A stretch of 54,893 bases of DNA from Chloroflexota bacterium (GTDB lineage: Bacteria > Chloroflexota > Dehalococcoidia > UBA2979): assembly GCA_003670735.1 (NCBI GenBank), contig QWQU01000003.1, positions 1 to 54,893 on the forward strand, given 5' to 3'. Shown here piece by piece: positions 12,951-17,284 of the stretch. Under the pieces are notes generated by a model. That model made no database searches, was not told where the DNA came from, and was given only the letters and a program-made list of their open reading frames with translations. A program made the position numbers and the translations under genes. Each line of letters opens with the position of its first letter. Within the stretch, counting starts at the first letter, position 1.

Positions 12951-13913
12951 ATGCAAGACCGCGACGGCGTACGCGCGACTGAGGCGGCCACGATGGCCGC
13001 CTCGGACGATGTGGCGGATTCCGCCTCGCCGCAGCATGTGCGCCTCGGTGCATGGCTGCGGTCGGAGCGATTGCGCCGCGGGTTCTCGTACGCCGAGGTT
13101 GAGCGCGACACGCACATCAACCGGCTGTACCTCGAAGCGCTCGAGGATGAGCACTACGACGTGCTGCCGGCACCGGTGTACACGCGCGGATTCGTGAAGC
13201 TGTACGCGCGCATGCTGGGCATCGACCCGAGCGGCGCGTCGGCGATGCTGCCGGATGATTTGCCGACACCACCTGGACTCGAACCATCCGCAGCGCTGCG
13301 CCGACAGCGCGAGAAGGCAGCGATCACACTGCCCAAGCTGCCCTCGATGCGCGTACCGGCACTGCGTGTGCCGGAGCTGCGCACGCCACGGACTGGGATT
13401 CGGCTGCCGTCACTCGGTGGCGGCGGGGCGTCCTCGAGCGGTGGTGGGGCAGCGCTCGGGCTGAAGGTGCCGGCGATCTCGCTCGGACCGGACGCCAGGC
13501 GCTACCTGCTGGCTGCGGTCGGCGTGGCGATCCTGCTGGCGGCGGGATACTTCCTGCCTCGGTACTTCGAGTCGCAGGGCTCGACCGGAACACAGGCCGT
13601 GGCGACGTCGGCAGCCTCGACGGTGCAGCCGGGCACGAACACAACGCAGGCGACGCCGGGTGCGGCGAGTACGAGCAGTCCGAACGTGACGCCGCCGGTG
13701 CCAACCGGGCCGGCGCTCGCGAACTACGTGGGGATGTCGCAGGCGGACGCACAGAAGGCGCTCGAGACGCTCGGTCTGACGTTCGTCGTGAACCAGGCAG
13801 CGAGCGTGACGGTGCCGCAGGGCCAGGTGATCGCGCAGTTCCCGTCGGCAGGCTCGCGCCTAAACGCCGGCGACAACGTGGTCTTGTCGGTCTCCCGCGG
13901 CGCCCCTCGGTAG
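12951..13913 (+). CDS. Membrane-anchored HTH protein with extracellular PASTA domain (RodZ-like)
   Basis: The 320-residue protein has a RodZ-type helix-turn-helix at residues 31-92 (LGAWLRSERLRRGFSYAEVE through PAPVYTRGFVKLYARMLGID), a Pro-rich cytoplasmic linker, one membrane helix at about 185-203 (YLLAAVGVAILLAAGYFLP), a Ser/Thr/Pro linker, and a C-terminal PASTA domain at about 250-318 (NYVGMSQADAQKALETLGL ... AGDNVVLSVSRG). RodZ links MreB to the elongation machinery; PASTA domains bind peptidoglycan fragments or lipid II in PknB kinases and PBPs. The combination suggests a link between cytoskeleton and wall sensing, which is inference. Possible alternative starts are at 12951 and 12993. 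Confidence 0.88.
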   Translation: MQDRDGVRATEAATMAASDDVADSASPQHVRLGAWLRSERLRRGFSYAEVERDTHINRLYLEALEDEHYDVLPAPVYTRGFVKLYARMLGIDPSGASAMLPDDLPTPPGLEPSAALRRQREKAAITLPKLPSMRVPALRVPELRTPRTGIRLPSLGGGGASSSGGGAALGLKVPAISLGPDARRYLLAAVGVAILLAAGYFLPRYFESQGSTGTQAVATSAASTVQPGTNTTQATPGAASTSSPNVTPPVPTGPALANYVGMSQADAQKALETLGLTFVVNQAASVTVPQGQVIAQFPSAGSRLNAGDNVVLSVSRGAPR

Positions 13914-14033: not shown

Positions 14034-15404
14034 GTGAAGTACCATCTTGTCACGCTTGGCTGCGCGAAGAACACCGTCGATTCGATGCGGCTCGAACGCG
14101 CGCTGCGCAATGGACGGCACACCTCGGTGGGGACGCCCGATGAGGCGGACCTGCTGCTGGTGAACACGTGCGGGTTCATCGACGCGGCAAAGGACGAGTC
14201 GGTGAGCGTCGTGCGCGCGCTGGACGAGGGGCGCAAGCCCGGTCAGCAGATCTATGTCGTGGGCTGCATGACGCAGATCGCGAAGGACGAAGTGCTGGAG
14301 GCCGTACCCACGGTCGACGCCACGTTCGGCGCGGAGGCATGGGACGACATCGCCGCCAGCCTTGGCCCGGCGGATGCAGCGTTCGACATTCCGGAGCCCT
14401 CCATGCCATCCACGAGCATCCCGATGCTCGACCTGGGTATGCCGAGTGCGTACCTGAAGATCTCGGACGGCTGTGACCGACCGTGCACGTTCTGCATCAT
14501 CCCGACGATCAAAGGACGGATGCACTCCGACACCACGGAGCGACTGCTCAACGAGGCGCGCTGGCTCGCGAACAGCGGCGTGCGCGAGCTCGTGCTGGTC
14601 GCGCAGGACTCGACCGCCTACGGCGAGGACGCGGGTGAGCGGGACGGGCTCGCGACCTTCCTCGAACGACTGTCGGAGCACGTGCCGGATGTGCCGTGGA
14701 TCCGACTGATGTACGCATACCCCGGCCGCGTGACGCCTCGACTGGCGGAGACGATGGCGCGGCTGCCGAACGTGGTGCCGTACCTCGACATGCCGTTGCA
14801 GCACGGGAGCGACGCGGTGCTGCGGCGCATGAAGCGGCCGAGCCTGCGCGTGGCGCGGCAGAGCATCGAGGCGGTGCGGTCGGCGATGCCGGACGTGACG
14901 CTGCGGACGACGTTCATCGTTGGCTACCCCGGCGAGACGGAATCGGAGTTCCAGGAGCTGCTGTCGTTCGTCGAGGAGCAGCAGTTCGACCACGTCGGCG
15001 CGTTCACCTACTCGCCGCAGCCGGGCACGCCGGCGGCCGCTGAAGGCGGCGCGCTGAGCGAGCGCGTGAAGCAGCAGCGCTACGGTCGAATCATGGAGCT
15101 GTCCCAAGGGATCGCGCTCAAGAAGAACCGAACGATGGTCGGCCGCGAGTTCGATGTGCTGATCGAGTCAGAGCACCCGACCGAGAGCCAGGGTGGCGGA
15201 CTCGTGGTGGTGGGTCGCACGGTGCGCGACGCGCCCGAGGTGGATGGCCTGGCGCTGGTGCGCGGGGAGTTCGCAGCGGGCTCGATGGTGCGGGTGCGGG
15301 TCGATGGCGCGCTGCCATACGACCTGCTCTGCACGCCCGTCGGCACCCAGGGGGTGTCTTCGCCCAGCTTCAACGCGGCCTCGTTGCCGTTTACGGGTCG
15401 CTAG
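14034..15404 (+). CDS. rimO: Ribosomal protein S12 methylthiotransferase RimO
   Basis: A 456-residue radical-SAM methylthiotransferase that adds a methylthio group to the conserved Asp of ribosomal protein S12. The N-terminal cluster cysteines are in GCAKN (Cys10), NTCGF and GCMTQ; the radical-SAM CxxxCxxC is CDRPCTFC; the start MKYHLVTLGCAKNTVDSMRL is typical of RimO, as opposed to MiaB. A C-terminal TRAM-like region (VLIESEHP ... GSMVRVRVDGALPYDL) is present. Translation starts from GTG at 14034. It is preceded by 120 bp with no gene and no clear terminator. Confidence 0.95.
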   Translation: MKYHLVTLGCAKNTVDSMRLERALRNGRHTSVGTPDEADLLLVNTCGFIDAAKDESVSVVRALDEGRKPGQQIYVVGCMTQIAKDEVLEAVPTVDATFGAEAWDDIAASLGPADAAFDIPEPSMPSTSIPMLDLGMPSAYLKISDGCDRPCTFCIIPTIKGRMHSDTTERLLNEARWLANSGVRELVLVAQDSTAYGEDAGERDGLATFLERLSEHVPDVPWIRLMYAYPGRVTPRLAETMARLPNVVPYLDMPLQHGSDAVLRRMKRPSLRVARQSIEAVRSAMPDVTLRTTFIVGYPGETESEFQELLSFVEEQQFDHVGAFTYSPQPGTPAAAEGGALSERVKQQRYGRIMELSQGIALKKNRTMVGREFDVLIESEHPTESQGGGLVVVGRTVRDAPEVDGLALVRGEFAAGSMVRVRVDGALPYDLLCTPVGTQGVSSPSFNAASLPFTGR

Positions 15405-15552
15405 TCTCCTAGCGGCTGGGCTCTCGAGTCACCTCGTTTCGTACGGTTCGTCCTCGATAACTTTCGTGCATCGCCTCGATCTGCTCGTGGGATAACGGGT
15501 CAGTTTGTTGTGTGGTCAGGGTAATCCCGCGTTTCCCCGCATTTAACGTCGA
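15405..15552. other. Gene-free stretch after rimO
   Basis: I see no coding frame, no hairpin with a T-tract and no RNA gene in this stretch. It is more AT-rich toward its right end, where the first small-protein promoter region begins. Confidence 0.4.
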
Positions 15553-15607
15553 TTTCACGTGAAAGTGGTCACAAGTACTTGCGAGGGTTTAGGCGAGCGC
15601 GCATGAT
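15553..15607 (+). promoter_or_regulatory. Putative promoter/operator of small-protein unit 1
   Basis: A perfect 12-bp palindrome TTTCACGTGAAA occupies 15553-15564. Fourteen bases later a candidate -35 TTGCGA (15579-15584), 17-bp spacer and -10 CATGAT (15602-15607) match the consensus at four of six positions each. The palindrome lies where an activator or repressor would sit. The promoter is moderately supported; the palindrome is exact. Confidence 0.45.
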
Positions 15608-15623
15608 GTTTCTGCAGGCAAGG

Positions 15624-15637
15624 GAGGGCGAGGCCCA
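15624..15637 (+). promoter_or_regulatory. Leader box 1 (GAGGGCGAGGCCCA)
   Basis: A 14-nt sequence identical to 16097-16110, 26 bases before the start of small protein 1. It contains a GGGC-GAG-GCCC mini-hairpin. Being the longest exact match between the two leaders, it is probably functional in the RNA. Confidence 0.55.
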
Positions 15638-15663
15638 CCGAGCCACGAAGGGACTAAGACACC

Positions 15664-15792
15664 ATGAATAACGAGTACATCCAGCGGTATTACAGCGCAG
15701 TCGTAGGCTCGAAGCGCATCAACAGCCCGAGCTTCACCGAGGCTGCGAAGGACTTGGCCAGCGCCAACGAGTGCATCCTCCTGGTCTACTAG
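15664..15792 (+). CDS. Small protein 1 of a two-member family (42 aa)
   Basis: ATG at 15664 is preceded by GAAGGGA. The peptide contains RYYSAVVGSKRINSPSFTEA followed by AKDLASANECILLVY. It shares about 20 of 33 aligned residues with small protein 2 (RYYS, VG, RIN, P-F-EAAKD, AN, IL), and most remaining differences are conservative (V/I, K/R, S/A, S/T). The gene has its own leader and terminator. There is no signal peptide or membrane segment; a short strand then a helix are likely. The conserved paralogue is the evidence that it is translated. I do not recognise the family. Confidence 0.75.
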   Translation: MNNEYIQRYYSAVVGSKRINSPSFTEAAKDLASANECILLVY

Positions 15793-15846
15793 CTCTCGAT
15801 CTTCCGCGGCGGAGGCCCCCTCTCTCTCTTCTGCCGCTTCGATGCC

Positions 15847-15876
15847 AAGAGGCGCCCACCCCCCGGGGCGCCTCTT
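15847..15876 (+). terminator. Terminator of small-protein unit 1
   Basis: AAGAGGCGCCC (15847-15857) pairs with GGGCGCCTCTT (15866-15876). A second small hairpin, CCCAAC-GTA-GTTGGG followed by GTTTT, lies at 15882-15900. Confidence 0.8.
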
Positions 15877-16030
15877 GTGCGCCCAACGTAGTTGGGGTTT
15901 TGGCCCAGATTCTCTGATTCGGACTTGGCAAGACTCGAACGCTCGCTTCCTAGCGGAGCACGCCGGTTCTTGCTCCCTCTCGATGGCTCGTTTGTACGAG
16001 CGGATGCTCGGAATTAGTGCCATAACACTC

Positions 16031-16059
16031 TTTACATATACCCCGTATAGGTATATATT
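16031..16059 (+). promoter_or_regulatory. Strong sigma70-type promoter of small-protein unit 2 with embedded operator
   Basis: TTTACA (16031-16036), 17-bp spacer and TATATT (16054-16059) make the best promoter I found in the window, in an AT-rich island. The spacer carries the inverted repeat ATATACC (16036-16042), seven bases, GGTATAT (16050-16056), so a dimeric repressor bound there would block polymerase. Predicted transcription start is near 16066, giving a leader of about 70 nt. Confidence 0.8.
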
Positions 16060-16096
16060 TCTCTTGCGGCAGTAGACCTGCCAACAGTTCGGGCAC

Positions 16097-16110
16097 GAGG
16101 GCGAGGCCCA
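16097..16110 (+). promoter_or_regulatory. Leader box 2 (GAGGGCGAGGCCCA)
   Basis: Exact copy of the box at 15624-15637, here 24 bases before the start of small protein 2 and directly before the GGGAAGGA ribosome binding site region. Confidence 0.55.
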
Positions 16111-16134
16111 GTGCACCGGGAAGGACCCAGTCAG

Positions 16135-16254
16135 ATGTTGAAGATTGAGCGGTACTACAGCGGAATCGTCGGAGCTCGTCGGATTAACGCCCCGACGTTT
16201 GCCGAGGCGGCGAAGGACATGGAGCGGGCCAACTCTCGCATCCTGGTCGCGTAA
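16135..16254 (+). CDS. Small protein 2 of a two-member family (39 aa)
   Basis: ATG at 16135 follows GGAAGGA at about nine bases. The peptide runs MLKIERYYSGIVGARRINAP then TFAEAAKDMERANSRILVA, paralogous to small protein 1 along its whole length. It is basic in the middle and ends in a helix-forming stretch. It has a strong dedicated promoter and a perfect terminator, so it is expected to be an abundant monocistronic product. Possible roles include a regulatory peptide or a small subunit of a larger complex; nothing in sequence decides this. Confidence 0.8.
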   Translation: MLKIERYYSGIVGARRINAPTFAEAAKDMERANSRILVA

Positions 16255-16328
16255 GCGATTCACCTCGCACCTCGGACGCCTGAGTCTCTCGGAGGCAAGG
16301 CGACCGACGGTTGTAGGCCAACAACCAT

Positions 16329-16355
16329 GAAGGGGCGCCCAATGGGCGCCCCTTC
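16329..16355 (+). terminator. Terminator of small-protein unit 2
   Basis: GAAGGGGCGCCC (16329-16340), AAT loop, GGGCGCCCCTTC (16344-16355): a perfect 12-bp stem, similar in core sequence (GGCGCCC) to the terminator of unit 1. It also lies at the end of the converging membrane-protein gene. Confidence 0.85.
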
Positions 16356-16388
16356 GTCATGTCCGGTGAGCCGCAAGCCGCGCTCGAG

Positions 16389-16565
16389 CTAGCGGGTGGC
16401 ACGCCAGAGGCTGCGGCCGATGAGGCCAGTCGCGACGAGGACGATCGCAGCACCGATGAGCTGCAGGCCGGGAGAGTCGTCGAGGCCGCCAGCGACGATC
16501 GCGAAGGCACCCAAAGCGGCGAGGATCAGCCAGGTGCCGACGAGCGTGACGACGTGGAGCGTCAC
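16389..16565 (-). CDS. 58-aa two-helix membrane protein
   Basis: GTG at 16565 overlaps the TGA of the HTH gene (GTGA), which indicates translational coupling. Two membrane helices are clear: VVTLVGTWLILAALGAFAIV and LIGAAIVLVATGLIG, separated by a short acidic loop (GGLDDSPG) and ended by a basic RSLWRATR tail. It is the third gene of an operon with the HTH regulator and the DUF2975 protein. Small membrane partners are frequent in such operons. Function unknown. Confidence 0.7.
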   Translation of the reverse strand: MTLHVVTLVGTWLILAALGAFAIVAGGLDDSPGLQLIGAAIVLVATGLIGRSLWRATR

Positions 16566-16804
16566 AGGGCTTCCTCGATCTCCGGGTCGTCGTCGGCATA
16601 GCCCTCGATCCACTCGAGGAGGTCGCCGGGCTGGCACTCCAGCACTCGGCACATGGCCTCGAGGGTGCTGAAGCGGATGGCCTTGGCTCGGCCGTTTTTG
16701 AGGACGGCGACGTTGGCAGGGGTGAGGCCGACGCGCTCCGCGAAGTCACCGACGCTCATCTTGCGCTTCGCGAGCTCGACATCGATGCGGACAACGATGG
16801 GCAT
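16562..16804 (-). CDS. Cro/C1-type HTH regulator (YozG-like, 80 aa)
   Basis: A short xenobiotic-response-element type HTH: MPIVVRIDVELAKRKMSVGD, then FAERVGLTPANVAVLKNGRA as helix-turn-helix, FSTLEAMCRVLECQPGDLLEW as closing helices, and an acidic tail. It matches the YozG group, which is almost always encoded beside a DUF2975 membrane protein, as here: the upstream gene ends one base before this ATG. It probably represses its own operon through the inverted repeat at 17275-17297. Confidence 0.92.
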   Translation of the reverse strand: MPIVVRIDVELAKRKMSVGDFAERVGLTPANVAVLKNGRAKAIRFSTLEAMCRVLECQPGDLLEWIEGYADDDPEIEEAL

Positions 16805-17284
16805 CTAGATCACTCCTTCGAGGTCGGAGCGGAGGAGGGTGGCCTGCCGGAGCAGGGCGCGCATCACCACCATCAGCAGGCCGACGACGGTCACTGAGAG
16901 CGTCAGGAAGATCAGGACCATCGGCATGCCGGGGTCATCGGCCTGCGAGAGCACCCAGGCGGTGAAGCTCGCGAGCACCAGCCAGCCGCCGGCGATCGAC
17001 CAGATGATGGCGTTGACCCACTTGAACGCCTCGGTGCTGAAGATGCGGTCGGACTGGACAAGGCTGAGCAGACGCCAGATCGAGACGACGATGACCTCGG
17101 CGCAGAGGATGCAGAAGCCAGCGAGGAAGGTCAGCGGCCAGCGGAGGTAGGCCTGGTCCGGGTGCTGCTGGGAGTTGTAGGCGAACGTTCCGGGGAACGA
17201 CAGGAACTGGAAGACGAGCAGCACCAGAAACAGCGCTGCCATCACGGCTTTGAGAAGGATGACCGATCGACGTTCGATATTCAT
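16805..17284 (-). CDS. DUF2975 membrane protein (159 aa)
   Basis: ATG at 17284 (MNIERRSVILLKAVMAALFL) is chosen because the upstream extension runs through the operator region. Four membrane helices are visible: LLKAVMAALFLVLLVFQFL, WPLTFLAGFCILCAEVIVVS, AIIWSIAGGWLVLASFTAWV and MVLIFLTLSVTVVGLLMVVM. The central RIFSTEAFKWVNAI after LLSLVQSD is typical of DUF2975. In known DUF2975-HTH pairs the membrane protein is thought to modulate the regulator, but the signal is not established. First gene of the three-gene operon. Confidence 0.88.
   Translation of the reverse strand: MNIERRSVILLKAVMAALFLVLLVFQFLSFPGTFAYNSQQHPDQAYLRWPLTFLAGFCILCAEVIVVSIWRLLSLVQSDRIFSTEAFKWVNAIIWSIAGGWLVLASFTAWVLSQADDPGMPMVLIFLTLSVTVVGLLMVVMRALLRQATLLRSDLEGVI

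Follow-up and report, generated by a model that had tools for sequence, protein, structure and literature searches.

The two tandem short genes analysed here belong to a small-protein family of the Chloroflexota that, judged by sequence searches, is undescribed. Codon-level substitution patterns show that the protein is translated and under purifying selection, and one protein core is found under at least five unrelated predicted control elements. We lean towards reading it as a stress-induced two-helix regulatory effector, whose paralogues would feed different stress signals to one conserved target.

Two paralogous small genes lie in tandem downstream of rimO

The window is the whole stretch of 54,893 nucleotides that was analysed (contig QWQU01000003.1 of a Chloroflexota bacterium of the class Dehalococcoidia). 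Two short open reading frames (ORFs) that an earlier note had proposed from the letters of this DNA are indeed present on the plus strand, one at 15664-15792 (copy 1; 42 aa, MNNEYIQRYYSAVVGSKRINSPSFTEAAKDLASANECILLVY) and the other at 16135-16254 (copy 2; 39 aa, MLKIERYYSGIVGARRINAPTFAEAAKDMERANSRILVA), with its ATG at 16135. The note had counted about 20 of 33 shared residues; alignment by MAFFT gives 22 identical columns (56% identity). The DNA upstream of the copies can be aligned as well: both leaders contain GAGGGCGAGGCCC (15624-15636 and 16097-16109), followed by a Shine-Dalgarno-like GAAGG. The note missed this shared element, as it did the dyad at copy 1 and the CsoR-type operator at copy 2 described below. 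A 224-aa ORF on the minus strand (15589-16263) was taken as a shadow of the two small genes and their spacer.

Each gene had been credited with a promoter and a perfect terminator hairpin. Copy 2 has a good sigma-70-like promoter (16031-16059, plus strand; TTTACA-17-TATATT, 10 of 12 consensus bases), whereas the presumed promoter of copy 1 (15579-15607, plus strand) is a weak candidate read by eye, in which TTGCGA (15579-15584) and CATGAT (15602-15607) are spaced by 17. Terminator-like hairpins follow both stop codons on the plus strand, at 15848-15876 (-25.6 kcal/mol) and 16329-16355 (-28.6 kcal/mol), and hairpins stand at the equivalent place in most relatives. However, neither has a real T-tract on that strand, and neither was listed on the plus strand in the terminator scan.

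In many genomes of the window's own family, the gene that separates rimO from DUF503/scpB is an orthologue of copy 1. The same gene order, together with the operator-like dyad described below, recurs in another Dehalococcoidia family (G097). In most relatives DUF503/scpB directly follows the small gene; in the window, the second copy and a pair of HTH and DUF2975-like genes (16562-17282, minus strand) are inserted between copy 1 and DUF503/scpB. The tandem pair is also present in the other genomes of the genus (G001 and G002). Upstream of rimO the window encodes a RodZ-like HTH protein with a PASTA-like C-terminus (12951-13913), whose gene adjoins rimO in several relatives.

The family extends into a second class of the phylum

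A profile built from 16 sequences detected homologues in 27 of the 44 genomes of the window's own family and in 12 of its 17 genera, several of these genomes having 2-6 copies; an earlier two-sequence profile had already matched relatives. The 27 genomes are a minimum, as G012 was missed by the profile yet has the rimO locus, the dyad, the leader and a diverged peptide lacking the PT motif. The 17 genomes with no detectable copy indicate that the gene is not essential, and fragmentary metagenome-assembled genomes (MAGs) and divergence explain some of these absences.

Outside the family, 393 genomes of the class yielded few convincing matches (G036, G056 and G097, and weakly G055). The gene also occurs in a second class of Chloroflexota, in 52 of 150 genomes (families f138, f158, f165, f166 and f167), mostly as a single copy of 56-61 aa with an extra N-terminal segment; one of these genomes fits that of Sphaerobacter thermophilus. 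A 59-aa member is encoded in G696 (C1:2115073-2115249). The profiles of the two classes align with an hhalign probability of 97.9% (E 6.7e-13). Used by itself, the profile of the second class picks up both window copies (E 6.6e-5 and 6.9e-4). All homologue searches were made within Chloroflexota, mostly in fragmented MAGs and with E-values per genome. The search for homologues elsewhere that the earlier note had proposed thus leads well beyond the window locus.

Family members measure about 38-61 aa. Pfam, NCBIfam and PHROGs gave no match above cut-off for 6 + 41 + 8 members, which bears out the view that the peptides belong to no known family. A PDB profile search returned only low-complexity helix matches. 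NF038404 and other family matches below cut-off were treated as chance. Scans of genome and viral contigs with a profile of the single pair found nothing, and the pair was too divergent for pattern seeds. No description of the family was found in the literature searched, a search outside which most subscription journals lay.

One protein core is found under unrelated control elements

The promoter of copy 2 contains a CsoR-type operator (16036-16056, plus strand; ATATACCCCGTATAGGTATAT) that follows the TAC-X9-GTA pseudopalindrome rule for CsoR operators (PMC3902906). TAC-X9-GTA also lies in the promoter region of the second copies of its genus and of G019b and G003b, and the form TACC-N7-GGTA was counted six times, ahead of 5 of 47 family copies, against 0.076 expected. 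The controller of copy 2 is probably a repressor of the CsoR family that responds to copper or reactive sulfur, an assignment that rests on operator shape. With this operator in the promoter, copy 2 and the other second copies in its genus resemble CsoR/RcnR regulons; however, the known targets of such regulons are export and chaperone genes, whereas here the putative target is a Cys-free uncharacterised small protein.

Copy 1 is preceded by an operator-like 26-bp dyad (15557-15582, plus strand; ACGTGAAAGTGGTCACAAGTACTTGC), the right end of which overlaps the presumed -35 element. It differs at 4 positions from the family consensus CACGTGATTGTGNNCACAATCACTTGC; the rimO-locus dyad is also written ACGTGATTGTGCGCACAATCACTTGC. 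In 21 of the 44 family genomes the consensus is found roughly once per genome, nearly always before the small gene, and the reversed-pattern control gave 0 matches. Among 294 genomes of the class the dyad was found in 12, all of the window's own family. The exceptions, L127 (G008:C4, minus strand) and L108 (G001:C19), stand before small ORFs with Cys pairs, for example MNPLCSHCLSALPFGWPEIEDCAECAALEAVDTALAAP, the frame at L108 being doubtful; these ORFs are possibly a second regulon member of the dyad's regulator. In many copies the dyad is preceded, at a distance of a few bases, by a conserved TTTAAC (TTTAAC-N4-6-TTTTACGTGA; 15540-15560 in the window), which is perhaps part of the site of the same factor.

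Other copies are associated with other regulators. One group lies between a kinase-like gene (UbiB-like by eye) and a Pfam-confirmed TetR gene 5 nt downstream, which is followed by an MMPL transporter gene. The promoter spacer of the second-class copies is filled by an 18-22-bp palindrome, GATATCRCGATATYGTGATATC, which lies across -35/-10. It was found at the small gene in 16 genomes, with a second site only in genus g305, where an ArsR-family (HTH_5) gene carries it in its promoter. This second site makes the g305 ArsR protein likely to be an autoregulated repressor acting on both sites. The assignment is based on the shape of the operator and on a single autoregulated gene from one genus. 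This ArsR protein (L291, L292 and L293) is about 397 aa long with a long N-terminal part, and the operator in its promoter, GATATCGCGATATC, is that of the small gene. As with known ArsR autoregulated repressors, an ArsR-type (HTH_5) gene has the operator in front of it; unlike in those systems, the small gene does not adjoin the ArsR gene and its product lacks metal ligands.

In two further families (G036 and G465) the gene is preceded on the same strand by a c-di-AMP aptamer (RF00379; 97.4 and 96.2 bits, against a gathering threshold of 38). The window copies have no such aptamer, as RF00379 was not among the matches in a scan of 15000-17000 at E<=5. Two distant homologues thus lie directly behind a full-length aptamer, as do targets of the c-di-AMP riboswitch ydaO/yuaA. 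This riboswitch typically controls transporters of K+ and osmolytes and enzymes of the cell wall; the literature searched yielded no description of a free-standing target protein of 53-60 aa. In G465 (C130, L211; 2089-2820) the riboswitch is followed by a tandem pair of small genes; the pair belongs to a third lineage, so the gene was duplicated in tandem on more than one occasion. Finally, diverged copies at L102 (G028:C5) and L096 (G014:C52) have TGACGTCA repeats at the promoter, a further candidate control; the copy G028c stands ahead of a zinc-type dehydrogenase gene.

Copies with one core were thus found under different stress controls. The suggestion of an abundant or structural peptide is unsupported; the copies look conditionally expressed, each under an operator or a riboswitch.

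A covarying leader hairpin precedes the small gene in the window's family

In the window's own family the leader RNA can form a two-part hairpin, with a 5' AA, a covarying outer stem and an inner GGGC-loop-GCCC; its fixed inner part, AAGGGC-GAR-GGCCC, lies just 5' of the Shine-Dalgarno sequence. In the alignment 92% of cells are paired, two-sided changes occur in 6 of 10 pairs, and none of 500 shuffles reached the covariation score; the pairing collapses once the register is shifted by one column or more. The covariance model R1 gives 39.8 bits (E 5.8e-10) for the leader of copy 2 (16085-16129, plus strand), which is in the seed, and 18.7 bits (E 3e-4) for that of copy 1 (15612-15656, plus strand), where the inner hairpin GGGC-GAG-GCCC is kept and the outer stem is degenerate. 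Across the 44 genomes, all 17 matches below 1e-4 lie directly before the small gene. Weaker matches (E 0.001-1) were discarded; the ten loci read were coding DNA without the peptide. An Rfam scan of the window leaders gave only sub-threshold matches. The second class does not have this hairpin as a general feature, and no leader of this kind is shared by the riboswitch lineages.

A covarying hairpin exclusive to the small gene and placed before its Shine-Dalgarno sequence, along with the richness of the peptides in arginine (16.5% R), would suit an RNA-binding or ribosome-associated protein. Such a protein would bind the hairpin of its own leader, as well as a comparable helix in rRNA or other RNA, with stress promoters setting the dose. 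We regard this as unlikely, though worth keeping in view. The second class and the riboswitch lineages retain the same core without a common leader, so neither RNA binding nor autogenous control through the leader can be the shared function. Moreover, a hairpin at the 5' end may do no more than stabilise a short mRNA.

Predicted fold, gene neighbourhood and selection

The family has the core F/IxxYY(S/N/G)xI/L...G(R)xxP(T/S)xxEA(R/K)(R/K)D(L/F/Y), or, in shorter form, YYx3(I/V/L)...Gx2P(T/S)x2EAxxD. AlphaFold predicts two helices separated by a G-R-x-x-P-T turn, spanning residues 2-13 and 22-38 in one model and 19-31 and 39-58 in another, with moderate confidence (pLDDT 71-73, pTM 0.38-0.47). 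Foldseek searches with the predicted models returned nothing below E 4.5, and the best VIA-align result for a predicted model had a Z of 2.9 and an rmsd of 3.1 over 46 residues. Resemblances to the LexA winged helix, SHOCT, Sda and bS21 were considered and were supported by no search. Cys and His make up 0.2% and 1.0% of the residues in the family and none is conserved, and no membrane helix was seen in sequences or models.

These features bear on whether the protein might be a stress-specific detoxification helper, such as a small chaperone, a transporter subunit or a metallochaperone, that works with neighbouring stress genes. Some copies head units with TetR-MMPL, OsmC-like or zinc-type dehydrogenase genes, as such a helper might, and CsoR- and ArsR-type control would fit it too. 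The description of the genes as stand-alone units accordingly needs qualifying: it holds for both window copies, and most copies are monocistronic, but some in relatives head multigene units. No partner gene is common to all contexts, however, and a core that stays the same while the signals are unrelated points to a single shared task. In a protein with no conserved Cys or His, direct binding of metals is unlikely; so is direct handling of metals or toxins, given also that the signals are chemically unrelated. A metallochaperone is ruled out, as the ligands are absent, and the missing membrane helix likewise counts against a helper of this kind. Overall, we consider a detoxification role rather improbable.

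Selection on the codons speaks to a different alternative, that the locus is not primarily protein-coding: it might serve as an attenuator or leader peptide, or specify a small RNA whose ORF is incidental. The shortness of the ORF, the hairpins on both sides and the conserved leader RNA could be read in this way. However, dN/dS is mostly 0.1-0.7 in close homologue pairs, and pN/pS, pooled over overlapping sequence pairs, is 0.33 in the core and 0.66 in the flanks. Synonymous change is therefore greater than replacement change, above all in the core, as expected from the note's claim that translation is under selection and from the codon-level comparison it had proposed. Taken with the matches in 27 of 44 family genomes, the dN/dS values argue that the window ORFs are not chance. 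Moreover, the core is kept between classes with unrelated leaders, and an attenuator is hard to reconcile with downstream genes that, at the rimO-locus copies, lie mostly on the opposite strand, and with the lack of a codon run in either ORF. This alternative is thus very improbable.

A selfish or defence gene, either the toxin of a toxin-antitoxin pair or a phage gene, is hardly credible: the gene is small, duplicated and patchily distributed, but it occupies a conserved chromosomal locus between rimO and scpB under purifying selection, has no partner gene, and found no significant homologue in phage, plasmid and viral-contig searches, the plasmid matches at E 0.7-1 being chance.

A putative stress relay

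The reading that we favour, of a stress-induced regulatory effector, keeps the earlier idea of a regulatory peptide as a best guess. A sensor would de-repress or activate one paralogue, copy 2 through a CsoR-family repressor and copy 1 through a factor on the 26-bp dyad, and the short mRNA would then be translated. The helical hairpin would dock by its YY...PTxxEAxxD face on one conserved cellular protein, and different stresses would lead to the same output. The leader hairpin beside the Shine-Dalgarno sequence would add post-transcriptional control, possibly autogenous. The inputs, that is the control elements, are supported by the sequence; the target and the mode of action are inferred. 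That the target is a single conserved partner is purely inferential, the argument being that the protein core stays constant while the sensor changes.

Small regulators made in response to specific stresses are known from other bacteria, among them the Ira anti-adaptors of Escherichia coli, which act on RssB/sigma-S, and Sda and the helical hairpins of the Spo0E type in Bacillus. The proteins described here are like them in being small, predicted to be helical and apparently made under different signals, and the known ones act on a central regulator; Sda, of about 46 aa, likewise folds as a two-helix hairpin. No sequence relation to any of them was found by any search. Furthermore, the Ira proteins are mutually non-homologous, whereas the Chloroflexota copies share one core.

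More tentatively, the family may represent a previously unseen stress relay of the Chloroflexota, in which a duplicated protein has been rewired under CsoR, ArsR, TetR, c-di-AMP-riboswitch and other controls to report to one central machine, such as RNA polymerase, the ribosome or a protease, and in which, in one family, a dedicated leader hairpin also controls the protein's own translation. To our knowledge, the regulatory biology of the Chloroflexota is nearly unexplored. The covarying leader RNA is new, as is this target for c-di-AMP riboswitches and for CsoR- and ArsR-type regulators. A protein of 40-60 residues that has repeatedly been placed under different stress sensors would show how Chloroflexota integrate stress, and this could be tested in cultured Thermomicrobia.
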